64,000 nt of DNA from Polaribacter atrinae (GTDB taxonomy: Bacteria > Bacteroidota > Bacteroidia > Flavobacteriales > Flavobacteriaceae), in contig NZ_CP150660.1 in the NCBI RefSeq assembly GCF_038023995.1, positions 56,001 to 120,000 of the forward strand, in the 5' to 3' direction. Position numbers and translations under genes: made by a program. This document shows positions 13,454-62,890 of this stretch, piece by piece. Each line of letters starts with the position of its first letter. The stretch's first letter is position 1. Under the pieces are notes generated by a model. That model was not told the DNA's origin and did no database searches. It saw nothing but the letters and a program-made list of their open reading frames with translations.

Positions 13454-13530
13454 GCTTGCGTTAAGGATTGAAATGGCATCCTTTTTACTTTTTTGTAAAA
13501 AGATATAATGGAAAGCCTGTTAAAACGCCC
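13454..13530 (+). repeat. Structured dispersed element, copy A
   Basis: Plus-strand order: GCGTT, block GGATTGAAATGGCATCC, central hairpin CTTTTTAC/GTAAAAAG, block GATATAATGGAAAGC, then AACGCCC. The outer GCGTT can pair with AACGC. Same blocks as copies B, C, C-prime and D. It sits between two convergent genes, downstream of a separate terminator. Confidence 0.75.
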
Positions 13531-13541
13531 AAATTAAAAAT

Positions 13542-16019
13542 CTATTTCAATTTATCTGAATTTAATAAGAAAACAGCATTGGCAACAAATAGTTTTCCGT
13601 TTTGCCAGAAAGATCTAAACAAAGGGTTGTCTACCATATAAATGATGCTTCCGCTACCCATTTTTTCCTCGGCAAATAAAACAGATTTTGGTACTTTTTT
13701 TATGGCTTTACTACCTGCGTAACCAGATACATTTTTAACATTTTCATCAAAGTAAGCAACGTTATTTCCGTCTTTTAAATACTCATACGTAGTTCCACCC
13801 AATTTTAAAGAAAAATAGGTTTTTCCATAACCAAAAGCTAATGGATGCGTATTGTCTAAAGTACTTTTAAAAATACTACCGGTAATTAAATGGGCTACAC
13901 TTTTGCGTTCTCTATCTGCAAAAGGAATTAAATTTGCTTCTTTAATTATTTCTTCGGATACTTTCTTTTTTAAAGAGAATTCCTTTTTATCTGCAAAACT
14001 ATTTAAAGCGTTTCCAATAGCAATTAAAGTACCACCAGAACGCGTCCAAGTTTTTAATTTCTCTAAAGTAGTTTTTGTTAAAACTGAATTATATCGTCCG
14101 TCAGGAATAATAATAACATCGTATTTTGAATAATCTAAATAGCTAAAATTGTCTGAGTTTACATTGGTTATTGGGTATTGTAATTGTGTTTCAAAGAAAT
14201 GCCAAATTTCACCAAAGCTTAAAGAAGATGTTCCCTTACCAGATAAAACCGCAACTTTTTGTTGGTTGATTGGTTTTACAGAATACGAACCAAAGTCTGC
14301 ACCAGAAGAAACAAAACCTGTAGAAACATTTGCTAATTCTCTTTGGTGCTTGTTTGCAATGGTTATTAAATTCGTATCAAAATCATCATTTCTGTTGTCA
14401 TTTCTTAAAATAATTAAAGTTCCTCTTTCATACGATTTACCCGCAATAGAAAAAGGTTTTTCTGAGAAACGAGGCGTAATATTTGCTTGTAACAAAGCTC
14501 CTAAAAAAGTGGCATCCTTTAAACTATTCCACTTAGAGATGTAAGCATACGCACTTTTATCAATTAAATTAGTAATAGGTTTTGTGGCTTTGCTAGCGCT
14601 AGAACTTACTTTTGTTTTAGAAGCAATTGCTTTAAATCCGTGGGCATAAGGTAAAGACCAAGCAGTAATATCATAGGTTAAAGAATCTACTATTTTTGCT
14701 TTAGGCTCAAAAAGTACTTTTACCATTTTTCCTTTTGGCTGATTGGTGTGTATTACTAAATCAGATGAAGAAACATTCATTTTAGCTTCTTTTTGAGTAC
14801 TATAATCATACCCTTTTACAGTACCTGTATTTGTGTTTTCATAGGTAATTTCATGCGTGTCTAACAATGCTTTTAAACGATTTGTCTTGTCTTCATTTTC
14901 ATTTTTTAACACATAACTTTTGAATTCTATAGCATCATTTTTAAAGAACTTTCTAAATTCGGTATTTAATTTTTCTGCATTTTTAGAGGAAACTTCTACA
15001 GTAGACAAACCTGTTGTAAGATGATGTGTAGCTCTATCTTTTAAGGTTAAAACTTCTCCTTGATCTGTATTGATGCCTAAACCAGCCATTCCATGACCAG
15101 CTTGTTCATAGGTCATTCCAATGGCACCCATATAAGTTGGGTAGGTGTCTCCGTAACTTGGGTATAATAAATCGAAACTTTCTTTTGTAAAATACAACCA
15201 ACCTTCTTTATCAAAGTAACTCGCATGATTTTTTCCTATTTCAGTTTGAAATTCTCTTTGCCAATCAGAAATAATTTCATGAAAAGGTTCTGCCGCTGGT
15301 GCAAAATAATAAGGATTATTGATATATTGTTCGTGGAAATCTACATGTACATGAGGCATCCATTTGTTATACATTTTTATACGTTGTGCAGATTCTACTT
15401 GTGTAACCCAAGCCCAATCTCTATTTAAATCGAATAAATAATGATTTGGTCTTCCAGAAGGCCAAGGTTCTGCATGTTCTTTTGCATCTTGGTTGCTATT
15501 ATAAGGAGTGCTTTTTACTTGGTTGTACCAATTCACATATCTATCTCGTCCGTCTGGATTTACAGAAGGATCTATAATTACCACTGTGTTTTCTAACCAA
15601 GCAGCTTTTTTAGTAACCAATTCATACAAAGTTAACATGGCTGCTTCTGTACTAGAAGCCTCGTTTCCATGTACGTTGTAACTTAACCAAACAATGGCTT
15701 TATTGTTTTTAGAATTTCCAGAAAGAATACCTGTTTGCGTAAGGTTGTTTTTTCTAATAGTTTCTAAATTATTGATGTTTTCTTGCGAAGAAATATAACT
15801 TAAATACAAAGGTCTGTGTTCATTAGTTTCTCCGTATTTTTCTAATTTTACATTAGATAAAGTGTTGCTAACATATTTAAAATAGTCTACAACTTTATGA
15901 TTTCGGGTAAAACGAGTACCAATTTCATAACCTAAAAATTGAGAAGGAGATTGTAGTGTTTGAGAAAAAATGCTTCCAACCGTTAAGAAAGCAGTGATAA
16001 AAAGGATTTTAATTTTCAT
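13542..16019 (-). CDS. Secreted M14-family zinc carboxypeptidase-like protein
   Basis: About 825 residues with a signal peptide (MKIKILFITAFLTVGSIFSQ); I prefer the ATG at 16019 over the upstream in-frame start because the signal sequence begins there. The zinc site is NVHGNEASSTEA (HXXE), with NPDGRDRYVNWY and the third-ligand region VDFHEQY following; the C-terminal half contains a ThuA/GATase-like segment (KYDVIIIPDG) and a Gly-rich end. Exported peptidase presumably acting on peptides in the periplasm or outside. A second family member lies at 58389-60875. A TACTTTTG box lies on its strand at 16038-16045. Confidence 0.88.
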   Translation of the reverse strand: MKIKILFITAFLTVGSIFSQTLQSPSQFLGYEIGTRFTRNHKVVDYFKYVSNTLSNVKLEKYGETNEHRPLYLSYISSQENINNLETIRKNNLTQTGILSGNSKNNKAIVWLSYNVHGNEASSTEAAMLTLYELVTKKAAWLENTVVIIDPSVNPDGRDRYVNWYNQVKSTPYNSNQDAKEHAEPWPSGRPNHYLFDLNRDWAWVTQVESAQRIKMYNKWMPHVHVDFHEQYINNPYYFAPAAEPFHEIISDWQREFQTEIGKNHASYFDKEGWLYFTKESFDLLYPSYGDTYPTYMGAIGMTYEQAGHGMAGLGINTDQGEVLTLKDRATHHLTTGLSTVEVSSKNAEKLNTEFRKFFKNDAIEFKSYVLKNENEDKTNRLKALLDTHEITYENTNTGTVKGYDYSTQKEAKMNVSSSDLVIHTNQPKGKMVKVLFEPKAKIVDSLTYDITAWSLPYAHGFKAIASKTKVSSSASKATKPITNLIDKSAYAYISKWNSLKDATFLGALLQANITPRFSEKPFSIAGKSYERGTLIILRNDNRNDDFDTNLITIANKHQRELANVSTGFVSSGADFGSYSVKPINQQKVAVLSGKGTSSLSFGEIWHFFETQLQYPITNVNSDNFSYLDYSKYDVIIIPDGRYNSVLTKTTLEKLKTWTRSGGTLIAIGNALNSFADKKEFSLKKKVSEEIIKEANLIPFADRERKSVAHLITGSIFKSTLDNTHPLAFGYGKTYFSLKLGGTTYEYLKDGNNVAYFDENVKNVSGYAGSKAIKKVPKSVLFAEEKMGSGSIIYMVDNPLFRSFWQNGKLFVANAVFLLNSDKLK

Positions 16020-16037
16020 AAAGATGGGTTTGGAAGC

Positions 16038-16045
16038 CAAAAGTA
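16038..16045 (-). promoter_or_regulatory. Putative -7 box (TACTTTTG) for the M14 peptidase
   Basis: The minus strand reads TACTTTTG, 18 bases before the preferred ATG at 16019. It overlaps the longer ORF start (16040), which supports the shorter start. Confidence 0.5.
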
Positions 16046-16218
16046 AGAATATATTTTTTTGTTTATCAGAAGATTGATTCTTTATGTTGTTAAAACTTTG
16101 TTAGATTGAAAGAAGCCTTTCGACAAAGGATAAATAATTCGTATTTTTATCAAAAATTAATCAAACTAAATGAATTCTACCACAGAATCTGATTGTTGCA
16201 AAAACCGTGTTATTTAAG

Positions 16219-17811
16219 ATGAAAGTAACACAGATACCATTTCAAAAAACAGGATTTTTTTCTAATATAATGCTAGATTATTTAGAGAAAAAAGAGTCTA
16301 TACAACCATTTTATAATAATTTTCCGGATATTTCTGGTTTTCATAATCAGATAGAAGAGAAGCAAAAATCGTTTAGATTGCAATCTAGATTGGTGCTAGT
16401 AGATGCTTTAAAAAATCAATACAAAGGTTTTAACGTTTCTAAAAAAACGGAAGAAAACATTGAAACTCTAAAGTTACAAAATACATTTACAGTGACTACG
16501 GGACATCAATTAAACTTGTTTACGGGTCCTTTATACTTCTTGTATAAAATTCTTTCTACTATTAATTTGTGTGAAGAATTGTCTGAAAAATTTCCAGAAC
16601 AAAATTTTGTTCCAATTTATTGGATGGCAACAGAAGATCATGATTTTGAAGAGATTAATTATTTTAATTTTGATGGAAAAAAAGTACTTTGGAACCGTGA
16701 AGATGGTGGGGCAGTTGGACGTTTTTCTACTGAAGGATTAGCAGCCGTTTTCGATGTTTTTTCTGAACACTTGGGGCATTCTAAAAATGCAGAATTTCTA
16801 AAAAAGTTATTTTTTGATGGGTATTTAAAACATCATAATTTAGCTGATGCTACACGTTATATTGCAAATGAATTATTTAGCGATTATGGTTTGATTATTT
16901 TAGATGGAGATGATGCTAGTCTAAAACAATTGTTTACCCCAATTGTAAAAGACGAACTAGAAAACGAAACTTCGTTTAAAGCTGTTTCAAAAACAATTAT
17001 AGATTTAGAAAAGAATTATAAAATTCAAGTGAACCCAAGAGAAATTAATTTATTTTATTTGGGAGCTGATTTTAGAGAACGTATTATTTTTGAAGAAGGA
17101 GTTTACAAAGTAAACAACACAGATATTACTTTTTCTAAGGCTGAAATTTTAAAAGAAGTAGATGAAAATCCGAAAGCATTTTCTCCAAACGTAATAATGA
17201 GACCTTTATACCAAGAGGTAATTTTACCAAACCTTTGTTATTTAGGTGGAGGAGGAGAGATGGCGTATTGGTTAGAATTAAAAGATTATTTTAAAGAAGT
17301 AGCCATTCCATTTCCTATTTTACTATTGCGTAATTCTGTGCAAGTAGTTTCTGAAAAACAAGCAAAAAAGTTAGAGAAATTAAATATTTCTTTAGAAGAA
17401 CTGTTTTTAAATCAATATGATTTATTGTCTGAAAAGGTGATAGAAAACTCAGAGATTAAGGTGAATTTTAATGAGAAGATTCAGTTTTTACAAAAGCAAT
17501 TTTTAGAACTGAAAGAAGTAGCCAAACAAACAGATGTTTCTTTTGTAAATGCAGTAAATGCACAAGAAAGAAAGCAAGTTAAAGGTTTAGAGAATTTACA
17601 AAAGCGTTTGTTAAAAGCAGAGAAAAAAAGACAAACAGATTTAGTGGAAAGAATTACGCTACTTCAAAATGAAATTTTACCAAATCAGAGTTTAGAAGAG
17701 CGTCAACGTAATTTTTCTGAATATTATTTAGAATATGGTTCAGCATTTACAAAAGCATTAAAAGTTTCATTAAAACCATTGCAATTAGAGTTTACAATTT
17801 TAGAACTGTAA
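16219..17811 (+). CDS. bshC: Bacillithiol biosynthesis cysteine-adding enzyme BshC
   Basis: Adds cysteine to glucosaminyl-malate, the last step in synthesis of the low-molecular-weight thiol bacillithiol. About 530 residues, the family length. Recognised by the N-terminus (IPFQKTGFFSNIMLDYLE), TTGHQLNLFTGPLYFLYK near residue 95, YWMATEDHDFEEI, and a late coiled-coil (residues 395-490). I use ATG 16219; a GTG at 16207 would add four residues. bshA and bshB are not in the window. The broken bacillithiol-transferase relic at 61803-62045 belongs to the same thiol system. Confidence 0.95.
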   Translation: MKVTQIPFQKTGFFSNIMLDYLEKKESIQPFYNNFPDISGFHNQIEEKQKSFRLQSRLVLVDALKNQYKGFNVSKKTEENIETLKLQNTFTVTTGHQLNLFTGPLYFLYKILSTINLCEELSEKFPEQNFVPIYWMATEDHDFEEINYFNFDGKKVLWNREDGGAVGRFSTEGLAAVFDVFSEHLGHSKNAEFLKKLFFDGYLKHHNLADATRYIANELFSDYGLIILDGDDASLKQLFTPIVKDELENETSFKAVSKTIIDLEKNYKIQVNPREINLFYLGADFRERIIFEEGVYKVNNTDITFSKAEILKEVDENPKAFSPNVIMRPLYQEVILPNLCYLGGGGEMAYWLELKDYFKEVAIPFPILLLRNSVQVVSEKQAKKLEKLNISLEELFLNQYDLLSEKVIENSEIKVNFNEKIQFLQKQFLELKEVAKQTDVSFVNAVNAQERKQVKGLENLQKRLLKAEKKRQTDLVERITLLQNEILPNQSLEERQRNFSEYYLEYGSAFTKALKVSLKPLQLEFTILEL

Positions 17812-17820
17812 CACAGCTTT

Positions 17821-17861
17821 TTTTAGAGAGAATATAGCTGTTTACAGCGTTTTCTCTAAAA
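17821..17861 (+). terminator. Nested hairpin after bshC, possible terminator
   Basis: TTTTAGAGA (17821-17829) can pair with TCTCTAAAA (17853-17861), enclosing a second stem GCTG/CAGC. No T-run follows, so terminator activity is uncertain. Confidence 0.4.
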
Positions 17862-18083
17862 TGTTTACCTCATACATAACGTTCTCTCATTTTGAAATGA
17901 TTTTTTTTGAAGTGAATTATGTGTTTTAAATAGAAAATAAATTATTTTGAACTAACTTTATAAATTCGAGCTAATTCATCTTATTATAAACTACTTTTGA
18001 CCTTTGAAAAAAAGAAACACAAATGGCTGTGACAATCAGTATAATTCGTTTTGTTTTTTTTCAATATAATTACACGAAATACA

Positions 18084-18938
18084 ATGAAAGATAAAGGATT
18101 ACACCCAAAAAATAAATTCAACAAAGGTTATAATTTTGATGAATTAATTATCATAAACCCAGCATTAAAAGAATACGTCGCTAAAAATCAATTTGATACT
18201 GTTACCATAGATTTTTCAAATCCGGATGCAGTAAAAGAATTGAATAAAGCTCTATTATTTTCTTTAGATAAAATTTCTACTTGGAATTTTGGTGACAAAA
18301 ACTTATGTCCTCCAATTCCTGGACGTTTAGATTACATTCACCATTTAGCAGATTTACTTTCTGGAGAAAAAGATATTAAGATATTAGATATTGGTACAGG
18401 TGCAACTGGTATTTATCCTTTATTAGGTATTGCAGAATATGATTGGAATTTTGTAGCTACAGACATCGATTTAGATTCTTTAGATACTGCCCAAGATATT
18501 ATGGACGATAATAATTTTACAAATAAAATTGAATTACGTCAACAATTAAATGAAGAACAAATTTTAAAAGGAATTTTAAAAGACACAGATTCTTTTTCTG
18601 CAACAATGTGTAATCCTCCTTTTTACAAATCGGCAGAAGAAGCACAAGGAGCTAATGGAAGAAAGTCTAGAAACTTAGGCAATAACGCAGTTAGAAACTT
18701 TGCAGGAAACAACAATGAGCTTTGGTACATTGGTGGAGAAAAAGCTTTTTTACATAATTATTTATATGAAAGTTCTTTGTTTCCTAAAAGTAGTAAATGG
18801 TACACAAGTTTAGTTTCTAAGAAAGAAAACGTAAAAAGTTTAGAAAAATCTTCTGCAAAATTAGGGGCTGCTGAGTTTAAAATTATTCCGATGCATCAAG
18901 GAAATAAAGTAACTAGAATTGTTGCTTGGAGGTTTTAA
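18084..18938 (+). CDS. rlmF: 23S rRNA (adenine(1618)-N(6))-methyltransferase RlmF
   Basis: SAM-dependent methylation of A1618 (E. coli numbering) in 23S rRNA. About 284 residues. N-terminal HPKNKFNKGYNF is the family start; the SAM site is LDIGTGATGIYPLLG near residue 103 and the catalytic N6-adenine motif is CNPPFYKS near residue 180. The ATG at 18084 (MKDKGLHPKN) is preferred over an in-frame start 33 bases upstream, because the extra residues (MFFFNIITRNT) do not look like this family. Followed by a strong terminator. Confidence 0.95.
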   Translation: MKDKGLHPKNKFNKGYNFDELIIINPALKEYVAKNQFDTVTIDFSNPDAVKELNKALLFSLDKISTWNFGDKNLCPPIPGRLDYIHHLADLLSGEKDIKILDIGTGATGIYPLLGIAEYDWNFVATDIDLDSLDTAQDIMDDNNFTNKIELRQQLNEEQILKGILKDTDSFSATMCNPPFYKSAEEAQGANGRKSRNLGNNAVRNFAGNNNELWYIGGEKAFLHNYLYESSLFPKSSKWYTSLVSKKENVKSLEKSSAKLGAAEFKIIPMHQGNKVTRIVAWRF

Positions 18939-18982
18939 GAAAACTTCTTTATTTTCTTAATAAGAAAACATATTTATAAAAA

Positions 18983-19020
18983 AAGGTTCAATCAAATTTC
19001 ATTTTGATTGAACCTTTTTT
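18983..19020 (+). terminator. Strong intrinsic terminator after rlmF
   Basis: A 14-bp perfect stem (18983-18996 with 19003-19016; arm AAGGTTCAATCAAA), a 6-base loop and a T-run. The A-run before the stem would also serve the opposite strand. Confidence 0.92.
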
Positions 19021-19033
19021 TATTTGAAATAAT

Positions 19034-19223
19034 AGATTTCTCAATTGCTAAAAAGCTCATTTGGAAATTACAGTCGGTTTGTTGTTTGAAGTTGAAATTC
19101 AGTCTGTCATTCCGAATGAGGAACGAAGAGGAATCTCATCATGTTTTTAATAATCTTAATAATGTAGGTTTTGTAAAATTTTCATGAGATTTCTCAATCG
19201 CTAAAAAGCTCATTTCGAAATGA
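19034..19223. repeat. Cluster of three dispersed intergenic repeat copies
   Basis: Three related units: 19034-19072 and 19183-19223 (both minus orientation, ending CTCATTTCGAAATGACA or a variant) and 19105-19138 (plus orientation, TCATTCCGAATGAGG...GAATCTCAT). The last two face each other and can form a long imperfect hairpin. Related to the copy at 3714-3749. No coding potential; the unit fills the gap between rlmF and the convergent membrane gene. Confidence 0.65.
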
Positions 19224-19234
19224 CAAAAGAAGAC

Positions 19235-19837
19235 TTAGTTAAACACCACATCATTAATTTTATACTTTTTACAAATAAAATGTAACAGCGTATAAACTAA
19301 CATATGTACAAAAACCAAACAGATAAACGCATACAAAGGCACTCCAAAAAGTTGATAAGGCCAATAATAGGTCCAAACTCCTAAATAAATAGTAATTACT
19401 TCTCCAAAAGCAGGGAGAATTAAGGCCAATAAAATTGCCAAAAGAATCTTGTTTTTTTGAGTTTTCTCTTTTAATAAAGGAATTAAATTACGTTCTAATT
19501 TGTACAAATAATGGAAGGCGAGCATCCAAGCAAAAGGTAACCATAAGGGCAATTCTCTTGTAACTTCATGATACTCCCAATATCCATTTGCAACTCCCCA
19601 AGTTTCACCAACAATTCCTCCAAAACCAGTTAATAACATACCTATTAATAACAACCAATTCTTGTTTGTTTTTGGCTGAATTATTTCTTTATAGATATTA
19701 GATACAATTTTTAGCACTAAAATTCCTGCAATTATAGCGTCATATTCTTTTAAAAGACCAATAAAAATTCCTGCAATTATTAATTTTAATAGCGCTTTAA
19801 GCGTTTCTTTTAAGAATAGTTTTTTGTTAGTAATCAA
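19235..19837 (-). CDS. Hypothetical multi-spanning membrane protein
   Basis: 200 residues, about six hydrophobic segments. A distinctive central region, GETWGVANGYWEYHEVTRELPLW, carries conserved-looking Trp, Glu and His residues between membrane segments and is followed by LPFAWMLAFHYLYKLE; a second WTYYWPYQLFGVPLYAF block follows. The two aromatic loops could be a repeat of one fold. I do not recognise a characterised family, so no function is proposed. Convergent with rlmF, divergent from the AsmA-like gene. Confidence 0.7.
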   Translation of the reverse strand: MITNKKLFLKETLKALLKLIIAGIFIGLLKEYDAIIAGILVLKIVSNIYKEIIQPKTNKNWLLLIGMLLTGFGGIVGETWGVANGYWEYHEVTRELPLWLPFAWMLAFHYLYKLERNLIPLLKEKTQKNKILLAILLALILPAFGEVITIYLGVWTYYWPYQLFGVPLYAFICLVFVHMLVYTLLHFICKKYKINDVVFN

Positions 19838-19961
19838 TGTGTTATTTCTTTTTTGGCAAAAATAAGGTTCTAAATTGAGTCAACTCTTATTTTTTTATAA
19901 AATTGAACGATATGAGTTCATTCTTTTCTGTATTGAAGTAAGAAAAAATAAATTAGTATGT

Positions 19962-19969: not shown

Positions 19970-19986
19970 TTTTAAAGCTAACTCAC

Positions 19987-22447: not shown

Positions 22448-23836
22448 TTATAAGTGAATTACTTCATCATAAGCATCCGCAACTGCTTCCATAACAGCTT
22501 CACTCATTGTTGGGTGAGGATGAATTGTTTTTAAGACTTCATGACCAGTAGTTTCTAATTTACGTCCTAAAACTGCTTCTGCAATCATATCTGTAACACC
22601 AGCACCAATCATATGGCATCCTAACCATTCACCGTATTTTGCATCAAAAATTACCTTTACAAAACCTTCAGTCGCTCCAGATGCAGTTGCTTTACCAGAT
22701 GCAGAAAAAGGAAATTTACCTACTTTTAAATCGTAACCAGCTTCTTTAGCTTTTGCTTCTGTCATACCCACAGATGCAATTTCTGGAGTAGCATAAGTAC
22801 AACCAGGTACATTTCCGTAATCGATTGGTTCTGTATGTAAACCAGCTAATTTCTCAACACAAGTAATTCCTTCTGCAGAAGCAACGTGTGCTAAAGCTTG
22901 TCCAGGAACCACATCACCAATAGCATAATAACCAGGTATGTTTGTTTGGTAAAAATCGTTTACTAAAATTTTATCTCTATCAACAATAATACCAACATCT
23001 TCTAAACCAATGTTTTCAATGTTAGATTTAATTCCAACTGCAGATAATAAGATATCAGCGGTTAAAGTTTCCTCTCCTTTTTTAGTTTTTACAGTTGCAA
23101 CAACACCTTCACCAGAAGTATCAACAGATTCTACAGAAGAATTTGTCATTACTTTAATACCCGCTTTTTTAATAGATTTTTCAAATTGCTTTGAAACATC
23201 AATATCTTCTACAGGTACTACATTTGGCATAAATTCTACAATAGTAACATCAGTTCCCATAGAATTATAAAAATGAGCAAACTCAACACCAATTGCTCCA
23301 GAACCTACAACAATCATAGATTTTGGTTGCGTTGGTAAACTCATTGCTTGTCTATAACCAATTACTTTTTTACCATCTTGTGGTAAATTAGGTAACTCTC
23401 TAGAACGTGCACCAGTTGCAATAATAATATTGTCTGCGCTATATTCAGTTACGGTACCATCTTCTGCAGTAACATCAACTTTTTTACCCGTTTTAATTTT
23501 ACCAAAACCGTTAATAATATCGATTTTGTTTTTCTTCATTAAAAAGGCAACACCTTTACTCATTCCATTTGCAACACCACGACTTCTTTTAATAACAGCT
23601 TCAAAATCTTTATCAATTGCCTCTGCTTTTAAACCATATTGATCTACATGCTTTAAATAATCATAAACCTGTGCAGATTTTAACAATGCTTTTGTAGGTA
23701 TACATCCCCAGTTTAAGCAAATTCCACCTAAGTTTTCTTTCTCTACAATGGCAACTTTAAAGCCTAATTGAGAAGCTCTAATTCCTGTTACATAACCTCC
23801 AGGTCCACTTCCAATAATAATGATGTCGTATTTCAT
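22448..23836 (-). CDS. lpd: Dihydrolipoyl dehydrogenase (E3)
   Basis: FAD-dependent enzyme that reoxidises the lipoyl arms of 2-oxoacid dehydrogenase complexes and the glycine cleavage system, passing electrons to NAD+. 462 residues. FAD motif GSGPGGYVTGIRASQLG at the N-terminus, redox-active disulfide in GGICLNWGCIPTKALL (CX4C), NAD-binding GSGAIGVEFAHF near residue 180, and the catalytic His-Glu pair in HPHPTMSEAV near the C-terminus. No E1/E2 genes are adjacent; the upstream neighbour is argS. Confidence 0.97.
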   Translation of the reverse strand: MKYDIIIIGSGPGGYVTGIRASQLGFKVAIVEKENLGGICLNWGCIPTKALLKSAQVYDYLKHVDQYGLKAEAIDKDFEAVIKRSRGVANGMSKGVAFLMKKNKIDIINGFGKIKTGKKVDVTAEDGTVTEYSADNIIIATGARSRELPNLPQDGKKVIGYRQAMSLPTQPKSMIVVGSGAIGVEFAHFYNSMGTDVTIVEFMPNVVPVEDIDVSKQFEKSIKKAGIKVMTNSSVESVDTSGEGVVATVKTKKGEETLTADILLSAVGIKSNIENIGLEDVGIIVDRDKILVNDFYQTNIPGYYAIGDVVPGQALAHVASAEGITCVEKLAGLHTEPIDYGNVPGCTYATPEIASVGMTEAKAKEAGYDLKVGKFPFSASGKATASGATEGFVKVIFDAKYGEWLGCHMIGAGVTDMIAEAVLGRKLETTGHEVLKTIHPHPTMSEAVMEAVADAYDEVIHL

Positions 23837-23869: not shown

Positions 23870-23946
23870 GGGCGTTTTAACGGGCTTTCCGTTGTATCTT
23901 TTTTGTAAAAACAAAAAAGGATGCCACTTCAATCCCTAACGCTTGC
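23870..23946 (-). repeat. Structured dispersed element, copy B
   Basis: On the minus strand: GCGTT, GGGATTGAAGTGGCATCC, hairpin CTTTTTTGT/ACAAAAAAG, GATACAACGGAAAGC, AACGCCC. It lies in the gap between the argS stop and the lpd start, in the sense direction of both genes, so it could be in the argS 3' untranslated region or the lpd leader. Confidence 0.75.
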
Positions 23947-23993
23947 TAATTTACTAACTTTTGGTCTTACAGCCAATGTAAGAATCAACTAAT

Positions 23994-25769
23994 TTACATT
24001 CTCTCTGGAACCTGAATTCCTAACAATAAAAATGCAGATTTAATAGTATCAGCTACTTTTTTAGACAATTGTACTCTAAAAGCTTTTTTATCTAAACCTT
24101 GTTCTCCTAAAATATGCACATTCTGATAGAAAGAATTAAATTCTTTTACCAAATCATACGTGTAATTTGCAATAATTGCTGGCGAATAATTAGCAGCAGC
24201 TTGTTGCACCGTTTCTGGATATAACTCTAATTGTTTTAGTAATTCTTTTTCCTTTTCGTGTAACTCTATCTTTACAGGTTCAGAATAATCAAAATCTGCT
24301 TTTCTAATAATAGACTGAATTCTAGCATAGGTATATTGAATAAAAGGACCTGTGTTTCCTTGAAAATCTACAGAAGATTTTGGGTCGAACAAGATTCTCT
24401 TTTTAGGATCTACTTTTAAGATAAAGTATTTTAAAGCACCTAAACCAATCGTTTCATATAACTCGTTTTTTTCAACATCAGAATAGCCATCTAATTTCCC
24501 TAATTCTTCAGAAATTTCTTTTGCAGTTGCTGTCATTTCATCCATCAAATCATCGGCATCTACAACAGTTCCTTCTCTAGATTTCATTTTACCAGAAGGT
24601 AAATCTACCATTCCGTAACTTAAATGATGTAATTGTTTGGCCCAATCAAATCCTAATTTTTTTAAGATTAAAAACAATACTTGAAAATGGTAATCTTGCT
24701 CGTTACCAACCGTATAAACCATTCCACCAACATCTGCATAATCTTTTACACGTTGTATAGCGGTACCAATATCTTGCGTCATATACACTGCTGTTCCGTC
24801 AGAACGCAACACAATCTTTTCATCTAAACCATCTTCTGTTAAATCACACCAAACAGAACCGTCTTCTTTTTTATAGAAAACACTTTTTTCTAAACCTTGT
24901 GCAACTACATCTTTACCTAATAAATACGTGTTACTTTCATAATATAAGGTATCAAAATCTACACCCATACTTTTATAAGTAACCTCAAAACCTTTATAAA
25001 CCCAAGAGTTCATTTCTTTCCAAAGAGCAACAACTTCTTCGTCTCCAGCTTCCCACTTCAACAACATTTGTTGTGCTTCTACAAATAACGGAGCTTCTTT
25101 TTTAGCTTCGTCTTCGGTTTTACCTTCCGCAATTAATTGCGCAATTTCTTTTTTATATTCTTGGTCGAATTTTACATAGTAATTACCAACCAATTTATCA
25201 CCTTTTAAACCTGTAGATTCTGGCGTTTCTCCGTTTCCGAATTTTTCCCAAGCCAACATAGATTTACAGATATGAATACCTCTATCGTTAATAATCTGTG
25301 TTTTATAGACTTTTTTACCAGCAGCTTTTATAATTTCTGCAACAGAATAGCCTAATAAATTGTTACGAACGTGCCCTAAGTGCAAAGGTTTATTTGTATT
25401 TGGAGAAGAGTATTCTACCATCACTGCTTTTTCATCCGCCTTTGGCGAAACGATTCCATATTTAGAATCTGGGTAGATCGAATTGAAAAAGTTAGTATAA
25501 AAACTATCGTCAATGACTAGATTTAAGAAACCTTTTACCACATTATAATTAGTGATTTCGGTAACATTTTCTACTACATATTTACCTAAATCCTCACCAA
25601 TTTGTACCGGATTTCCTTTTTTGTGGCGCAATAAAGGGAATACTACTACCGTAATATCTCCTTCAAATTCTTTTCTTGTTGCCTGAAATTCTACAGTTGG
25701 AATTTCTATATTGTATAGTGCTAAAAACCCTTCTTTTACTTTGGTTTCTATAATGTTTTGAATGCTCAT
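23994..25769 (-). CDS. argS: Arginine--tRNA ligase
   Basis: Charges tRNA-Arg. 591 residues with the N-terminal Add-1 domain, class I HIGH motif in NTNKPLHLGHVRNNLLG near residue 125, the KMSKS-equivalent MKSREGTV, and the C-terminal DALR anticodon-binding domain (residues 470-591). A good promoter lies just upstream on its strand (25791-25821). Downstream, structured element B separates it from lpd. Confidence 0.97.
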   Translation of the reverse strand: MSIQNIIETKVKEGFLALYNIEIPTVEFQATRKEFEGDITVVVFPLLRHKKGNPVQIGEDLGKYVVENVTEITNYNVVKGFLNLVIDDSFYTNFFNSIYPDSKYGIVSPKADEKAVMVEYSSPNTNKPLHLGHVRNNLLGYSVAEIIKAAGKKVYKTQIINDRGIHICKSMLAWEKFGNGETPESTGLKGDKLVGNYYVKFDQEYKKEIAQLIAEGKTEDEAKKEAPLFVEAQQMLLKWEAGDEEVVALWKEMNSWVYKGFEVTYKSMGVDFDTLYYESNTYLLGKDVVAQGLEKSVFYKKEDGSVWCDLTEDGLDEKIVLRSDGTAVYMTQDIGTAIQRVKDYADVGGMVYTVGNEQDYHFQVLFLILKKLGFDWAKQLHHLSYGMVDLPSGKMKSREGTVVDADDLMDEMTATAKEISEELGKLDGYSDVEKNELYETIGLGALKYFILKVDPKKRILFDPKSSVDFQGNTGPFIQYTYARIQSIIRKADFDYSEPVKIELHEKEKELLKQLELYPETVQQAAANYSPAIIANYTYDLVKEFNSFYQNVHILGEQGLDKKAFRVQLSKKVADTIKSAFLLLGIQVPERM

Positions 25770-52189: not shown

Positions 52190-52285
52190 GGGCGTTCCCA
52201 AAAAGGTCGCGCTTTCATTACTCGCTTTTAACACTTTTTAAGAAGTGTTAAAGAGCTTAAACATACCATTCAATCGCTAACGCAA
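52190..52285 (-). repeat. Structured dispersed element, copy C-prime
   Basis: Minus strand: GCGTTAGCGATTGAATGG, then a longer central hairpin (TTTAACACTT / AAGTGTTAAA), GAAAGCGCGACCTTTTTGGG and AACGCCC. The middle is unrelated in sequence to other copies but still palindromic. It faces copy C, and the outer 27 or so bases of the two are near-perfect inverted repeats. It overlaps the over-long 5' end of the CBS-domain ORF. Confidence 0.7.
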
Positions 52286-52327
52286 ATTGTTTGCCAGCAA
52301 TTTGTATTTACCAAAGCTAACAGCTTG

Positions 52328-52412
52328 TTTGCGTTAGCGATTGAAACGGCATCCTTTTTAGAGGTACGAGAAAAAGATATAGTGGAAAGCGCGACCTTTT
52401 TAGGGAACGCCC
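52328..52412 (+). repeat. Structured dispersed element, copy C
   Basis: Plus strand: GCGTTAGCGATTGAAACGGCATCC, hairpin CTTTTT/AAAAAG, GATATAGTGGAAAGCGCGACC and GGGAACGCCC. With C-prime it fills the whole gap between two minus-strand genes and ends 5 bases before the permease stop codon. Confidence 0.75.
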
Positions 52413-55002: not shown

Positions 55003-55021
55003 AGTTTTGGTTAAACGTTTC

Positions 55022-56306: not shown

Positions 56307-57341
56307 ATGTACAAATCTGTTGTAAGACCAATTTTCTTTTTATTCGATCCTGAAAAAATTCATTATTTTACCTTCTCTTTGGTTAAAACCCTTTGTAAAA
56401 TTCCTTTTGTTTCTTCAATATTCAAAAGCTTGTATGTGTTTGAAGACAAGCGTTTAGAAAAAACTTTATTCGGAATTACTTTTAAAAATCCTGTTGGTTT
56501 AGCTGCTGGTTTTGATAAAAATGCTGTTTTATATAACGAATTGGCTAATTTTGGTTTCGGTTTTATAGAAATAGGAACCGTAACCCCAAAAGGACAAGTT
56601 GGTAACCCTAAAAAAAGATTATTTCGTTTAAAAGACGATCAAGGAATTATAAACAGAATGGGTTTTAATAATGACGGAATGGAAGCTGCCATTAAAAACC
56701 TTAAAAAGAATAAAGGACAAGTTGTTATTGGTGGTAACATTGGTAAAAATACAACAACTACTCCAGAAAACTATACAGAAGATTATTGTGAGGTTTTTAA
56801 AGAATTGCATCCTTATGTAGATTATTTTGTACTAAATGTAAGTTGCCCAAATGTTGGTAGTCATGCAAAACTGAATGACAAAGATTATTTATTAGAATTG
56901 ATTTCTGCTTGTCAGGAATTGAATAATAAAGAAAAAATACAAAAACCAATTTTACTTAAAATTGCTCCGGATTTAAATAATAATCAGTTAGATGAAATTA
57001 TAGAATTGGTAAGCGAAACAAAGATTGATGGTGTAATTGCTTCTAATACTTCTACAAATAGAGATAACTTAAAAGTTTCTAAAGAACGTTTGGCAGAAAT
57101 AGGGAATGGTGGTGTAAGTGGTCAGCCTGTAAAAAAACAAAGTACTGCTGTTATTAAATATTTAGCAGATACTTCAAAAAAATCTTTTCCTATTATTGGC
57201 GTAGGAGGAATTCATTCAGAAAAAGATGCTTTAGAAAAGTTAAATGCAGGAGCAGACTTGGTACAAGTATATACAGGTTTTATTTACGAAGGTCCTAGTT
57301 TAGTAAAACGAATTAACAAAGCCATTTTAAAACAACTTTAG
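56307..57341 (+). CDS. pyrD: Dihydroorotate dehydrogenase (quinone), class 2
   Basis: Oxidises dihydroorotate to orotate in pyrimidine synthesis, with electrons going to the quinone pool. 344 residues; the N-terminal helical pair ([21 protein letters not shown]) that binds the membrane marks class 2. FMN and substrate sites: [41 protein letters not shown], the catalytic Ser in [20 protein letters not shown] and [16 protein letters not shown]. Standard length, intact. Confidence 0.97.
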
Positions 57342-57438
57342 GTTTTATAATTTATAGATATTCCAAAGTCTACAAGAATTTCTGAAAACAACTTTAAATA
57401 AACTTATTTCAGAGGGGTTTTTCAATGATTAAAAATAT

Positions 57439-58053
57439 ATGATAGAAATTTTAATTTCTTTTGCAATAGCAACGTCTATTTTATCGATTTCTCCAGGTCC
57501 TGATAATATTTTTGTACTTACACAAAGTATTGTTAATGGAACAAAATATGGGTTGGCTACAGTTATTGGTTTAATGTCTGGTTGTTTGGTGCATACTTCC
57601 TTAGTTGCTTTTGGCGTTTCTGCAATCATAAAAGAAAATGAAAATCTTTTTTTTGTGATCAAATTAATAGGAGCAAGTTATTTAATCTTTTTAGCGTACA
57701 AAGTCTTTAAAAGTGATGCGAAAATTGTCTTATCTAATGATGGTGTTAAAAAAGAGTCAATCGTAGCACTTTTTAAAAAAGGGTTTATCATGAATGTCTT
57801 AAACCCAAAAGTGGCTTTATTCTTTTTAGCATTTTTTCCTCAGTTTTTGTTTTCTAATACAATCTCAACAGTTATTCAATTTTATACTTTAGGTGGAATC
57901 TTTATTTTAGTTTCCTTTTTAGTTTTTGGAATGATTGCTGTTCTTGCAGGCAGTATTTCTAATTACCTAAAAGAACATGCTAAAATAGGTGTGTATTTAA
58001 AATGGGGACAAATAATAGTATTTGTCTTTATTGCAATTATGATTCTGTTGTAA
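57439..58053 (+). CDS. LysE/RhtB-family amino-acid exporter
   Basis: 204 residues with about six hydrophobic segments. The family signature SPGPDNIFVLTQSIVNGTKYG lies in the first 40 residues, and KLIGASYLIFLAYKVFKS and FKKGFIMNVLNPKVALFFLAFFP follow. Exports amino acids or similar small solutes across the inner membrane; substrate unknown. About 100 bases after pyrD, with a possible weak hairpin (TCTGAAA/TTTCAGA, 57381-57413) between, so probably a separate unit. Confidence 0.92.
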   Translation: MIEILISFAIATSILSISPGPDNIFVLTQSIVNGTKYGLATVIGLMSGCLVHTSLVAFGVSAIIKENENLFFVIKLIGASYLIFLAYKVFKSDAKIVLSNDGVKKESIVALFKKGFIMNVLNPKVALFFLAFFPQFLFSNTISTVIQFYTLGGIFILVSFLVFGMIAVLAGSISNYLKEHAKIGVYLKWGQIIVFVFIAIMILL

Positions 58054-58388
58054 GTACTTGTTTTATATCTTTATAAAACTCTGTCAATTCAAGAATTTTT
58101 ACAACTTAGATGCGTAAAATTGTATGGATAGAATATTTTTGGGTTCCTTAAAATTACCAGAACTACTAGTTCATATTGCTTTTTTACTTACAAATTACCT
58201 AAAACCTACCTATAGGTAATTAGTAGTTCGGTCTTTGTGAATATAACCAATCATAATTTTTATAGATTCATACTTTTTATCAATAATATAAAAGAGGATA
58301 ACTCTACTGAAATAGATAAAATGTTAAAGTATTAAAAGAGTAATTACCTGAATAAGTATATTTGTTTGATAACCAAATTAAAACATAA
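58054..58388. other. Intergenic region with nested inverted repeats and a possible gene remnant
   Basis: GAACTACTA (58160-58168) pairs with TAGTAGTTC (58221-58229), enclosing ATTACCT/AGGTAAT (58194-58200 with 58214-58220). On the minus strand a short open stretch (reading FYIIDKKYESIKIMIGYIH, then a stop near 58214) looks coding, but I cannot assign a family. A TATATTTG box at 58357-58364 is a plausible promoter for the next gene. Confidence 0.4.
58357..58364 (+). promoter_or_regulatory. Putative -7 box (TATATTTG) for the second M14 peptidase
   Basis: TATATTTG matches TAnnTTTG and lies 24 bases before the ATG at 58389. Confidence 0.5.
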
Positions 58389-60875
58389 ATGAAAAAAGTA
58401 CTACTCTTATTTATGTTGTCTACATTTTCTATAGTTGGGCAGCAAATAGACTTATCTTATTATTTACCAAAAGGAAATTACAATGAAAAAATACCAACAC
58501 CTAAAAGTGTTTTAGGGTATGAAGTAGGTGAGTGGCATGTTACGCACGATAAATTGGTAGAGTATATGAAAGCTTTGGCGGTTTCTTCAGATAGAATTTC
58601 TATAGAAAATAGAGGAACTACATTTGAAGGTAGACCTTTATTGTTGCTAACAATTACATCACCAGAAAATCATAAGAACTTAGAAAGTATCAGAAAAAGA
58701 CATATTGAAGCTACTAATAATGATGCGGTAGATATTACAAAAAATCCTATTGTTGTTTATCAAGGATTTTCCATTCATGGTAATGAGGCAAGTGGTTCTA
58801 ATGCAGCATTGGCGGTTGCGTATTATTTAGCTGCTGCTGATAATATTGATGATGTTTTAAATAATACCGTTATCCTTTTCGATCCTTCTCTTAATCCAGA
58901 TGGTTTACAGCGTTTTGCATATTGGGCAAATACCAACAAAAGTAAAAACATTAATCCAGATCCTAATGATAGAGAATATACAGAGGTTTGGCCACGAGGA
59001 AGAACCAATCATTATCAGTTTGATATGAATAGAGATTGGTTGCCTGTACAGTTACCAGAAAGTAAAGTTAGAATTGCAAGTTTTCATAAATGGTTACCAA
59101 ATATTTTAACAGATCATCACGAAATGGGGAGTAACTCTAGTTTCTTCTTTCAACCAGGAATTCCTTCTAGAACAAATCCGTTAACACCACAAATGAATCA
59201 GGATTTAACGAAAGAAATAGGATCTTATCATGCAAAAGCATTTGATAAATTAGGTTCTATGTATTTTTCAGAAGAAAGTTACGATGATTTTTATTACGGT
59301 AAAGGTTCTACATTTCCAGATATTAACGGAAGTATAGGTATTCTGTTTGAGCAAGCAAGTTCTAGAGGACACGCTCAAGAAACAGAAAACGGAATTTTAA
59401 CGTTCCCTTTTACAATAAGAAATCAGTTTACGGCAGCTTTATCTACTTTAGAAGCCGCTAAAAATATGCGTGTAAAAATATTACAATACCAACAAGATTT
59501 TTACAAAGAGTCTAGAAATACAGGTTTTAAAAAAGCTATTGTTTTTGGTGATGAAAAAGATGGCGCAAAAAGCTATCAATTAGCAGAAGTGTTAAAGCGT
59601 CATCAAATTAAAATACATGAAGTAAAAGATGATTTTACGCAAAATGGCAAAAACTTTAAAAAAGGATATAGTTATGTAGTACCAATGAATCAGAAAAACC
59701 AACGTTTGGTAAAAGCAATGTTCGATATAAGAACAACCTTTAAAGACAGTTTGTTTTATGATGTTTCTGCTTGGACTTTTAACCATGCTTTTGGTGTAGA
59801 TTATGCAGAAAATATATCGCTTGCAAAAGCAGGAAAAGAAATTACTGAATTAAAAATGAATACAGGTATTGTTTCTTTTAAAAGTGATTATGGTTATTTA
59901 ATGCCTTGGAATGAATATTATACACCTAAAGCTTTAAATGCAATTTTACAAAAAGGTTTACGTGCAAAAGTAGCTATGAAAAATTTTATAAATGGCGATA
60001 CTTCTTACGATTATGGAACTGTTTTTATTCCCGTTCAAAATCAAGAATTAAATGCTGATGAAATGTATCAGTTTTTAGAAAAAATAGCAATAGAAAGTCA
60101 TGTTAAAATTGCAGGAGTTACTACAGGTTTAAATGAAGGAATAGATTTAGGATCTAGAAGTTTTAGTGCTATTAAAAAGCCAAAAGTAGCTATGCTAGTG
60201 GGAGACGGAATTACGGGTAATGATTCTGGAGAAATTTGGCATTTATTCGATCAACGTTTCGATATGCATTTAACTCGTTTAGATATGAATTATTTTACAA
60301 GAGTAGATCTTAATAAATACACACATATTATTATTCCGAGTAGTCGTTTAGAAAAGGATGCAATAGAAAAATTAAAAACTTGGACTACTAATGGGGGTAT
60401 TATTATTGGTTATAAAAACACAGTTAAATGGTTGGCAAGTAATAAATTTATAACGATAGATTTTGATAAAACTAAAATGGATACTATTAATGATATTTCT
60501 TTTGAAAATCGTTCTTTAAAATCTGGAGCACAAGTTATTGGTGGTGCTATCTTTAAAGCAAAAGTAGATCGTTCTCATCCAATTAATTTTGGATATAAAA
60601 ATGATGAAATTGCATTGTTTAGAAAAACAACCTTGTTTATGAAACCAGATAAAAAGAGTTATAATAATCCTATTCAGTATACAGCCAACCCATTATTAAG
60701 TGGGTATATTTCTAAAGAGAACGCCAAAGTAATTAAAAACACAGTTCCTTTTAAAGTACAAAGATTAGGTAGAGGTAGCGTTATTGTTTTTACAGACAAT
60801 ACAAATTTTAGAGGTTTTTGGTTTGGAACCAATAAATTATTAATGAACACAATTTTCTTTGGAGATAAAATGTAA
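58389..60875 (+). CDS. Secreted M14-family zinc carboxypeptidase-like protein (second copy)
   Basis: 828 residues, same architecture and length as the protein at 13542-16019. Signal peptide (KKVLLLFMLSTFSIVGQ), zinc site FSIHGNEASGSNAA near residue 135, LNPDGLQRFAYWAN, RGRTNHYQFDMNRDWLPVQ and the third-ligand region LTDHHEMGSNSSFFF; a C-terminal GATase/ThuA-like half (YTHIIIPSSRLEKDAIEKLK). The two paralogues differ throughout, so the duplication is old or they were acquired separately. Exported peptidase; substrate unknown. Confidence 0.9.
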   Translation: MKKVLLLFMLSTFSIVGQQIDLSYYLPKGNYNEKIPTPKSVLGYEVGEWHVTHDKLVEYMKALAVSSDRISIENRGTTFEGRPLLLLTITSPENHKNLESIRKRHIEATNNDAVDITKNPIVVYQGFSIHGNEASGSNAALAVAYYLAAADNIDDVLNNTVILFDPSLNPDGLQRFAYWANTNKSKNINPDPNDREYTEVWPRGRTNHYQFDMNRDWLPVQLPESKVRIASFHKWLPNILTDHHEMGSNSSFFFQPGIPSRTNPLTPQMNQDLTKEIGSYHAKAFDKLGSMYFSEESYDDFYYGKGSTFPDINGSIGILFEQASSRGHAQETENGILTFPFTIRNQFTAALSTLEAAKNMRVKILQYQQDFYKESRNTGFKKAIVFGDEKDGAKSYQLAEVLKRHQIKIHEVKDDFTQNGKNFKKGYSYVVPMNQKNQRLVKAMFDIRTTFKDSLFYDVSAWTFNHAFGVDYAENISLAKAGKEITELKMNTGIVSFKSDYGYLMPWNEYYTPKALNAILQKGLRAKVAMKNFINGDTSYDYGTVFIPVQNQELNADEMYQFLEKIAIESHVKIAGVTTGLNEGIDLGSRSFSAIKKPKVAMLVGDGITGNDSGEIWHLFDQRFDMHLTRLDMNYFTRVDLNKYTHIIIPSSRLEKDAIEKLKTWTTNGGIIIGYKNTVKWLASNKFITIDFDKTKMDTINDISFENRSLKSGAQVIGGAIFKAKVDRSHPINFGYKNDEIALFRKTTLFMKPDKKSYNNPIQYTANPLLSGYISKENAKVIKNTVPFKVQRLGRGSVIVFTDNTNFRGFWFGTNKLLMNTIFFGDKM

Positions 60876-60902
60876 CGTTTATTTACCAAGAATATAGCAT
60901 CA

Positions 60903-60937
60903 AAATCGCAATGTTTAATTAATAAACTTTGCGATTT
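60903..60937 (+). terminator. Intrinsic terminator after the second M14 gene
   Basis: AAATCGCAATGTTTA (60903-60917) pairs with 60923-60937 with one mismatch, followed by T-rich sequence. Confidence 0.85.
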
Positions 60938-61133
60938 TTTTTATTTAATAGTTTCTTAATTGTAACAAATAGAATACTTAAACGGCTTATTTATGTTACC
61001 AACTAAATATATAAATGAGTTTTTTTTATTAATAAGTAGTTTTTTTAGCTTTCAAAAAAACATTAATTTCAATTATAGCTCCTATTATCATATCAACTTT
61101 AAAAAATATTCAAATGTAATTTCGTCTTTTATA

Positions 61134-61601
61134 TTATTTTTTCTTCATGCCTAATTTCTGAATTACCCATAATGGGCCTATCAATAAAAACTCTAAATCT
61201 TTTAAAAAAGATGGTTTTGCTCCTTCTACTTTATGTCCGTAAAACTGACCAATCCAAGCTAAAACAAAAATAGTAATAGATGCATAGAGTAAGCTTACTT
61301 GGTTACCTAACCAAAAATTAGCAAGAATAGCTATTAAAATGATAAAGAGCATTTCAATAAAATACCAAAACCCTAAACGTAAATAAAAAACAGAAATTAC
61401 AAGACCAACAATTACAGCCCAATTTTCTATCAAAGGATTAGAAAGCACAAAAGTATTTTCTAAAAATGTAGTTGGTATGCTCATGAGTAAACCAATAACA
61501 CTAAAAAATATAAGGGGAACACAAACGTAATGAATGGCTTGGTTTGTCTCATTTTGATGACTTACAGCGTATTCGTCAAAATATTCTTTGGCAGTTTTCA
61601 T
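61134..61601 (-). CDS. Mpo1-like protein (DUF962)
   Basis: 155 residues with about four hydrophobic segments. Family marks: EYAVSHQNETNQAIHYVCVPLI, containing the His residue of the NxxxHxxGxP-like region, and WIGQFYGHKVEGAKPSFLKD with the second conserved His, ending in FLLIGPLWVIQK. The yeast relative Mpo1 is an Fe(II) dioxygenase in 2-hydroxy fatty acid alpha-oxidation; the bacterial role is untested. Convergent with the M14 gene and separated by about 200 bases without a gene. Confidence 0.88.
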   Translation of the reverse strand: MKTAKEYFDEYAVSHQNETNQAIHYVCVPLIFFSVIGLLMSIPTTFLENTFVLSNPLIENWAVIVGLVISVFYLRLGFWYFIEMLFIILIAILANFWLGNQVSLLYASITIFVLAWIGQFYGHKVEGAKPSFLKDLEFLLIGPLWVIQKLGMKKK

Positions 61602-61802
61602 AAAATTGATATTAAAAATTTACAAGATAACTATTTTTTATAAAAAAGAATTGCTATTATTTCCAACCATTTATTATCATTAACTCTTCTATATGTATAA
61701 AAAGATGTTTACTATGACCAAGCATAAATACATATATTCTCTTTTAAATGAACTTCATTATTCCTAGAAGGATGAATAAAAGTTTTTCTAATTCAGTACC
61801 CG

Positions 61803-62045
61803 TTAATTTTCATAAAATAAATAACCATATCTAGAGAGTAAGGCCTTTAAAGCATCAATAGATAAAAAAATAGGAGCATATTTAGATTCGTTCAATTTAG
61901 CCAAATAATCTTCATAAGCCTTTATTACTGGTTTATCTTTTGTCAATCCCCATTTAAAACATAAATAAGAATTATAGTGACTATCATAACAATGGTGTAC
62001 AAGCTGTCTAATTATCCAAACATCTTTTCTATACGGAGTATCTAA
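61803..62045 (-). pseudogene. Remnant of a BstA/YfiT-type (DinB-fold) bacillithiol transferase
   Basis: Minus-strand frame of 80 codons, open from a TAG at 62046-62048 to TAA at 61803. It reads LDTPYRKDVWIIRQLVHHCYDSH and continues with KWGLTKDKPVIKAYEDYLAKL and YAPIFLSIDALKALLSRYGY. These match the YfiT/BstA pattern ([32 protein letters not shown]...LH.RW). The first part of the protein and the C-terminal NHH..H metal region are missing, and no start codon is available. BstA enzymes attach bacillithiol to toxic electrophiles. Clearly a relic. Confidence 0.75.
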
Positions 62046-62149
62046 CTATATATAATACAGTTGTTTGGTTTTTGTAGGCGTTTTTTTTAAAGTTGATAAT
62101 TGTATGAATACTATCTTTTTTAAAAATCAAATCAACATTAAAAAAACAA

Positions 62150-62644
62150 TTAAGCTTTATAATTATCAATTAAATCTTGTATAACTTCAGCAGTAAGTTC
62201 ATAGCCCTTTAATTGTGGCCAACCTTCCCAAACAACAATTCCATCAGGATCTATAATAATACAATGTGGAATCCCCTTAATCTCTAACTTTCTATTAAGT
62301 CTAGCTCTTCTATCAATTGCACTATAATATTCAATTTCAGCTTTTTTAAAACGTTTAATTTTAGCTTTAGACTCGTTGCTAAGAGCAATAACAACCAAAT
62401 CTTTGGTAAATTTTTTATGAAAAGCATTCATTTCAGGTATCCCTTTAATACAAGGTCCACACCAAGTAGCCCAAAAATCTACTAATATAAATTTCCCATC
62501 CGTTTTAGGTGCATCTGTCAACCAAGAACCCACAACTAATTCAGGTGCTTTTTTATTTAAAAACGATTTTGCCCACATTTTCTTATTTTGACTATAAGAA
62601 GTCATAACAAAAAGACCAATACAAACTAAGATAATTTTTTTCAT
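62150..62644 (-). CDS. TlpA-family thioredoxin-like protein
   Basis: 164 residues with a signal peptide (KKIILVCIGLFVMTSYSQN) and a thioredoxin fold with active site WATWCGPCIKGIPEM near residue 60. GIPHCIIIDPDG near residue 125 holds the conserved cis-Pro. Expected to be periplasmic and reduce or shuffle disulfides, for example for cytochrome maturation. ATG at 62644; repeat D lies about 170 bases upstream. Confidence 0.9.
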   Translation of the reverse strand: MKKIILVCIGLFVMTSYSQNKKMWAKSFLNKKAPELVVGSWLTDAPKTDGKFILVDFWATWCGPCIKGIPEMNAFHKKFTKDLVVIALSNESKAKIKRFKKAEIEYYSAIDRRARLNRKLEIKGIPHCIIIDPDGIVVWEGWPQLKGYELTAEVIQDLIDNYKA

Positions 62645-62810
62645 TAGATAAATATAGTGGTTTTAAATCTCATTGTTTTAATAATTGTATCAAAAGCATC
62701 CTATATAACATTTATTGGTTTCCCTTGGGTGTTCCCTTTTTTTAGTTCGATTTAAAGAAAGTTAATGTCCTATATAATGATAAGTATTCAAAATAAAGAA
62801 ACTTTCAGAT

Positions 62811-62890
62811 AAAAAAGGTCGGGCTTTCCACTATATCTTTTGCTTCATACTTCACAAAAGGATGCCGTTTCTATCCCTAACACGAATTGT
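62811..62890 (-). repeat. Structured dispersed element, copy D
   Basis: Minus strand: GTGTTAGGGATAGAAACGGCATCC, hairpin CTTTTG/CAAAAG, GATATAGTGGAAAGCCCGACC followed by a U-rich run. The terminal AACGCCC block is absent and the outer pairing is lost, so this copy is degenerate or 3'-truncated. It lies upstream of the TlpA gene and beside the rRNA operon. Confidence 0.7.

Follow-up and report, generated by a model that had tools for sequence, protein, structure and literature searches.

Flavo-1 (RF01705) elements of Polaribacter atrinae: a modular, burst-capable family that exchanges its centre in place

The question raised by a 64,000-nucleotide window of the Polaribacter atrinae genome (C1:56001-120000 of a single-contig 4.01 Mb genome) is what its five structured intergenic elements, here called copies A, B, C, C' and D, represent. 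All five lie where an earlier note on this DNA had placed them, with coordinates now refined from the letters (Table 1). The note knew of no named class for them; a cmscan comparison with Rfam reveals that copies A, B, C and D are the Flavo-1 RNA motif, RF01705 (Weinberg et al. 2010, PMC2864571), with E values of 7.1e-9, 1.9e-10, 1.3e-7 and 1.4e-6, respectively, and scores above the gathering cut-off of 42 bits. The genome as a whole holds 71 RF01705 matches at E<=0.001, 51 of them over the cut-off, among the 150 of 1087 candidates that were scored, and the recurrence of the element is, as had been suspected, beyond chance. The family is known and already named; it is also modular, capable of bursts and given to exchanging its centre in place. 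With slightly better than even confidence, we read Flavo-1 as a set of short non-autonomous interspersed repeats resembling repetitive extragenic palindromic (REP) sequences, the folded single strand of which would be recognised by a putative trans-acting protein, and not as a set of small RNA (sRNA) genes.

Copy C' has no Rfam match, even at a lax threshold, because it holds a different central module. Its outer ends and GATTG...AAAGC frame are the same as those of the other copies; its centre is GATTGAATGGTATGTTTAAGCTC...AAGCGAGTAATGAAAGC (centre b), the same kind as in further centre-b copies of this genome. The shared centre that had been described is found in A, B, C and D and is lacking in C'. 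The flanking blocks, described as conserved, are so only in part, as GGATTGAAACGGCATCC is not identical across copies (A ...AAATGG, B ...AAGTGG, D GGATAG...), several of the differences being compensated in the 3' block. The outer stem, previously thought pairable in four of the five, can pair in all five, because GTGTT of copy D (62883-62879) has AACAC (62733-62729) behind an insert in the tail, located between GACC and GGGAACACCC; relative to GCGTT/AACGC, this stem carries a C-G to T-A change. Copies at 19160, 3041091, 3525818 and 3532400 resemble copy D in the 5' part and where the tail begins. Copies C' and C form an inverted, REPIN-like head-to-head pair 47 bases apart (window 52269-52352, AATCGCTAACGCAAA...TTTGCGTTAGCGATT), where sub-threshold matches to microRNA families are probably due to the palindrome.

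The anatomy was read from 68 of the 71 genomic matches with their flanks, which also served for the analysis of pairing, three being outside the set. From the outside inwards, an element consists of an end module, helix P1, an internal loop, the 2-bp helix P2, a centre and an apical stem-loop. The end module is either I (TAGCCC...GGGAAATAGCTTC) or II (GCGTTA...AACGCCC), and four centre types (a, b, c and d) occur, each capped by a variable apical stem-loop; the subtypes number 31 II-a, 15 I-a, 13 I-b, 4 II-c, 4 II-d and one II with an unclassified centre. Both end types and centre a are found also in other families of the same order. P2 is mostly AC/GT, AT/AT, GC/GC or GT/AC. Between P1 and P2, GATWG faces AWAGC, a motif whose high identity (0.988) the parser itself forces and which therefore carries no weight here; its W pair is T-A in 56 copies, A-T in 5, A-A in 4 and T-T in 3, and in 8 of the 13 b copies the loop is shorter by one base on both sides, a coordinated change. 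Some loops contain other repeats, e.g., GTCATTGCGAGG...CAATGAC and GTTCGAGTGAATTT...GAGAAC. A strict pattern for long centre b matched this genome nine times, all on the plus strand and none on the minus, the other b copies lying on both strands.

Orthologous sites reveal how the modules behave. Forty-six flank pieces, copy D being outside this set, were mapped onto two congeners, G034 and G029, in which the strict parser finds the element in common at 25 of 37 and 17 of 36 sites, respectively. More are visible by eye, the parser missing elements such as those at 851354, 1647383 and 3550158 in G034, plus two of the genome's own copies. Among the 42 orthologous pairs compared (1566266/G029, inside a gene, was left out), the end type never changed, whereas the script records a changed centre type in 4 of 25 pairs with G034 and 4 of 17 with G029, one of the latter starting from an unclassified centre; sites of centre exchange other than that of copy B are 1378571, 2526263, 3478502, 1647383, 2273977, 2503930 and 303542. 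End modules remain constant as centre modules are exchanged in place, which is new here. No element was found in G034 or G029 where copies A (69453) and C (108326) map, the downstream side alone being alignable for C in G034; copy B has one in both. At 1375688, the corresponding gap of G029 contains a type I element pointing the other way, suggestive of an insertion of its own. The alternative named earlier, recent duplicates that simply diverged, sits badly with so many copies at orthologous congener sites, even though a recent burst is seen in one congener, G018.

The site of copy B offers a longer record of the exchange. Copy B lies between the end of one gene (23994-25769, minus strand) and the start of the next (22448-23836, minus strand), in the sense direction of both. 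From its sequence, we take the downstream gene to be that of a dihydrolipoamide dehydrogenase-like protein (lpd), and the best named relatives of the product include several from Polaribacter. Among 35 orthologous loci read with both flanking genes, our own included, the element is intact in 22, degenerate in 5 and absent from 8, L101 and L105 having been scanned with none in either. Centre b is present at 5 of the 22 intact loci (L086, L090, L091, L092 and L116). In a tree built from the flanking sequence, the deep nodes of which are poorly supported, L086 falls among centre-a loci (support 99), L092 groups with centre-a L095 (100), L090 with two empty loci (99) and then with centre-a L083 (89), and L091 with L116 (100). 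Parsimony on this tree needs at least four a/b changes; the centre at site B has thus been swapped repeatedly with its ends constant.

Copy number varies as well. Patterns add to the Rfam matches six centre-a copies with long loops and six centre-b copies, bringing this genome to at least 84 copies (71 matches, 12 pattern-found and C'). Strict filters give 0 to 66 copies across 35 congeners, and laxer filters at least 135 in G018. In the latter, 29 of 30 scanned loci, hand-picked from the listed matches and not random, belong to subtype I-b. Their mean pairwise identity is 95%, while their flanks resemble one another no more than unrelated AT-rich DNA does (0.61, 0.65); L306 and the five loci of highest score, which bring the loci read to 35, are of other subtypes. 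On these identities, G018 is a species that has undergone a recent burst in copy number. Across the class, scoring of up to 15 candidates in each genome gave matches in 107 of 296 genomes, 72 of them over the cut-off, and none was found in the 14 control genomes that made up the search outside the class.

Pairing in the two helices is stronger than chance would provide. The two P1 positions are Watson-Crick in 66 and 66 of the 68 own copies, against shuffle maxima of 34 and 40, and those of P2 in 65 and 61, against a maximum of 47 for both, when the 3' letters were permuted 1000 times with our own scripts rather than R-scape; two cautions apply to these figures, namely that the parser picks the best-pairing reading and so inflates the percentage paired, and that copies within one genome are not independent. 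The orthologous pairs supply 168 helix cells: 136 are unchanged Watson-Crick and 3 unchanged G.U, 18 changed on both sides and are still Watson-Crick, and the one-sided changes comprise 5 between Watson-Crick and G.U, 4 breaks and 2 repairs. Ten of the 18 both-side changes belong to constant-centre pairs (4 in P1, 6 in P2) and 8 to changed-centre pairs; all four breaks are in P2 at constant-centre pairs. Strong covariation of P1 and P2, far beyond the shuffles, supports the view that the pairing of the Flavo-1 helices is under selection. A larger set of 185 distinct elements, drawn from many genomes with orthologues included, poorly pairing elements filtered and G.U and A.C treated equally, gives 740 P1 and P2 cells, of which 712 are Watson-Crick, 19 G.U, 1 A.C and 8 other. 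Because G.U exceeds A.C by 19 to 1 (p 4e-5 assuming independence, which does not hold; 7 to 1 in our own genome alone, p 0.07), the strand modelled by Rfam looks like the selected strand.

These helices are the principal difficulty for the proposition that Flavo-1 elements are functionless, decaying repeats in which template-switch correction maintains perfect arms and gene conversion homogenises the copies: P1 and P2 covary despite the non-complementary loop bases that intervene, and correction of this kind does not sit well with the wobble asymmetry. The proposition, which we regard as improbable, draws its strength from the apical arms, near-perfect palindromes with a fast turnover in which 5 G.U stand against 3 A.C across 157 apical parts, no clear asymmetry; from the 4 broken pairs set against 10 both-side changes at constant-centre pairs; from the many sites at which the element is missing or degenerate; and from the centre exchange itself, which implies recombination between copies. 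Lacking a clear asymmetry, the complementarity of the apical arms is the weaker evidence, and quasi-palindrome correction by template switching could be an alternative source of it. Selection on structure, as the earlier note proposed, is supported by P1 and P2 and is weaker for the central hairpin arms on which that proposal was based. Folding energy adds little: on the Rfam strand, RNA z values of the five window copies run from +0.22 to -1.38, mostly near those of shuffles, and the DNA values are -2.53 for B and -0.26 to -1.78 for the others. Taken one by one, the copies have mostly unremarkable folding energies; the argument for structure is built on covariation.

The main rival is that Flavo-1 is a functional RNA element, of untranslated regions or a small RNA, that binds a protein or ligand as RNA of the Rfam strand and has spread through recruitment to many genes; we allow it a minor, though real, chance. 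G.U tolerance on the selected strand and covariation at orthologous sites are what it would lead one to expect, and copy B, sense to lpd and recurrent in many congeners, follows a promoter-like box (Table 1) that resembles the flavobacterial -7 promoter motif. Transcription may start at this box, and with the box upstream, B may form the beginning of the lpd 5' untranslated region. Other observations oppose a role as RNA. On gene calls from our own open-reading-frame script, both neighbouring genes run antisense to the element in 25 of 67 own copies, and gene context in the G018 sample is inconsistent. A promoter-like TANNTTWG box within about 48 upstream bases accompanies 7 of 68 own copies (no chance expectation was computed), and an upstream promoter is rejected as a general feature. 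As far as the consulted part of the published Flavobacterium psychrophilum transcriptome goes, it yields no clue to the role of Flavo-1, hits overlapping transcribed regions in either orientation alike and many lying outside them, and some 5' regions, in the rival's favour, coincide with hits (PMC9723704).

The same gene calls reveal a bias in orientation. Of the 66 own copies with a called gene on the 3' side, 49 have that gene in antisense, and 26 of those 49 genes end <= 30 bases from the Rfam match; tandem gaps divide into AA 25 vs SS 9 (p 0.009), and convergent gaps outnumber divergent ones by 22 to 6 (p 0.004). Replication strand shows no clear pattern when inspected by eye against a sparse GC skew.

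According to the repeat reading that we prefer, Flavo-1 copies would multiply by copying into intergenic DNA, the single folded strand modelled by Rfam would be the one recognised by a putative trans-acting protein, and the centre exchanges would come about as copies recombine with one another within the conserved loop. Single-stranded DNA is slightly preferred over RNA as the recognised form, because of the copies antisense to both neighbours and the scarcity of promoter-like boxes. Several observations weigh against this reading, as do the two cautions on pairing given above. Tolerance of G.U pairs is no less expected of RNA than of single-stranded DNA. On the opposite strand, the RNA z values are -2.60 for B and -3.26 for C' (+0.95 to -0.40 for the other three), and since these two copies fold better there, thermodynamics casts no vote for the Rfam strand; a 3'-untranslated-region role on that opposite strand is disfavoured by the wobble bias, despite these two copies. 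The orientation bias is weaker or absent among 42 copies from six other genomes (AA 18, SS 10, AS 7, SA 7); of the 18 AA, five come from G047 and have flanks that resemble one another. Neither a target-site duplication nor a clean empty site was established among the 37 and 36 mapped sites. Finally, no mobilising enzyme for Flavo-1 was found: reverse transcriptases are patchy, with matches in 6 of 12 chosen genomes and no clear link, and Y1_Tnp (PF01797) counts do not track Flavo-1 counts (rho -0.10) in the 29 congeners with a completeness of 90% or more, the 7 below that level being left out.

The last result bears on the idea that these are REP/REPIN elements mobilised by a REP-associated tyrosine transposase (RAYT, TnpA_REP), for instance of the Bacteroidetes subclass 2.6. 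Intergenic, high-copy, folded elements with an inverted pair such as C'/C would suit it; subclass 2.6 genes, in the part of the literature consulted, are mostly from Bacteroidetes and have atypical flanking structures (PMC6006769), and our genome has two RAYT-like genes with YIHNNP and YVHNNP motifs that resemble this subclass (PMC6006769). Both of these genes are flanked by different palindromes, of the ACGAGCG...CGCTCG kind, and not by Flavo-1, a core of which is nowhere directly beside them, the nearest being about 1.2 kb off. Four congeners with 53-59 copies (G001, G008, G021 and G029) have no PF01797 match, and G002 and G035, with six matches, have zero Flavo-1 copies. The Y1-type gene that lies close to a Flavo-1 copy in G018 is flanked by palindromes of its own. 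RAYT/Y1 transposases are rejected as the mobiliser because they show no association with copy number and are not flanked by Flavo-1, leaving this idea very unlikely. A gene-bearing autonomous version was likewise rejected: in a search that covered centre a only, six 5' halves for which no Rfam match was listed proved to be complete elements with a long loop and no gene inside. No common gene was seen beside the element in low-copy and other genomes' loci.

A more specific proposal, offered tentatively as one we think unlikely, is that Flavo-1 loci are fixed platforms, the folded single strand being the substrate of a putative Bacteroidetes recombination or copying system that would repeatedly replace the centres (a-d) and load other repeats into the loop, with site and outer ends kept constant.

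Table 1. Positions of the Flavo-1 copies and associated features (window positions unless a locus is named).
Feature	Position	Strand	Description
Copy A	13458-13530	+	Flavo-1, end module II, centre a, P1 AG/CT, P2 AT/AT; RF01705 53.9 bits
Copy B	23870-23942	-	Flavo-1, end II, centre a; RF01705 59.5 bits
Copy C	52331-52412	+	Flavo-1, end II, centre a, GAGGTACGA-type loop; RF01705 49.3 bits
Copy C'	52190-52283	-	End II, centre b (TGTTTAAGCTC.../...GCGAGTAATGAAAGC); assigned from the letters, no Rfam match
Copy D	62727-62883	-	Flavo-1, end II, centre a, loop GTGAAGTATGAAGC; RF01705 45.5 bits
Promoter-like stretch	23943-23968	-	Just upstream of B; TAAATT(T/A)GC box, recurrent in many B loci
RAYT-flanking palindromes	L036 6920-7720; L035 10060-10200, 10800-10950		
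Longer-unit loci	L342 3083 and 12492; L343 3953; L344 11039; L348 47; L349 4919 (reverse)		

The palindromes of the ACGAGCG...CGCTCG kind are likely the cognate repeats of the two RAYT-like genes, of which the one on L036 has near-duplicates of its start region upstream. The Y1-type gene of G018 encodes 189 amino acids with a YINLNP motif, and its palindromes AGACCTCACAGGTTTTAAAAACCTGTGAGGTCT are at L286 1868-1898 and 2522-2553. In G111, G234, G335 and G352, a Flavo-1 II-a element forms the last part of a longer unit, itself repeated, that precedes different genes, much of the 220 upstream bases being common (47 bases only for L348). The window also contains the start of a 16S rRNA gene (63685-64000), which continues past its end.

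In their consulted parts, PMC2864571, PMC9723704 and PMC9029176 give no function for Flavo-1, the last, a review, counting it among the most abundant sRNA families; nor is there mention in these parts of the Flavo-1 literature of module exchange, a burst or a one-strand wobble bias. The RF01705 covariance model matches four of the five window copies with the same helices, and in the same phylum, Bacteroidetes, but the Rfam type is sRNA gene and the model is blind to the end-II/centre-b form C'. If Flavo-1 is an interspersed repeat that acts as a folded single strand, the sRNA annotation is misleading and the enzyme that spreads or reshuffles it awaits discovery; the data make this reading testable by indicating which strand matters, which modules are fixed and which exchanged, and that G018 holds a recent burst. 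The attC sites of integrons are recognised by structure and have a highly variable apical part between outer boxes RYYYAAC ... GTTRRRY. Flavo-1 resembles them in its structural recognition, as proposed here, and variable apical part, but carries its outer boxes in reverse order (5' GTT, 3' AAC). Miniature inverted-repeat transposable elements are non-autonomous, intergenic and spread in bursts, as Flavo-1 appears to be, with the difference that no transposase-bearing relative was found, nor were terminal inverted repeats with a target duplication established for Flavo-1. REP, BIME and REPIN elements, as described in the consulted parts of PMC6006769 and PMC3733652, measure 20-40 nt, whereas the Flavo-1 core is about 70 nt or longer, and no cognate RAYT flanked by Flavo-1 was found; what Flavo-1 has in common with them is that both are short, folded, intergenic multicopy repeats, sometimes arranged as inverted pairs.

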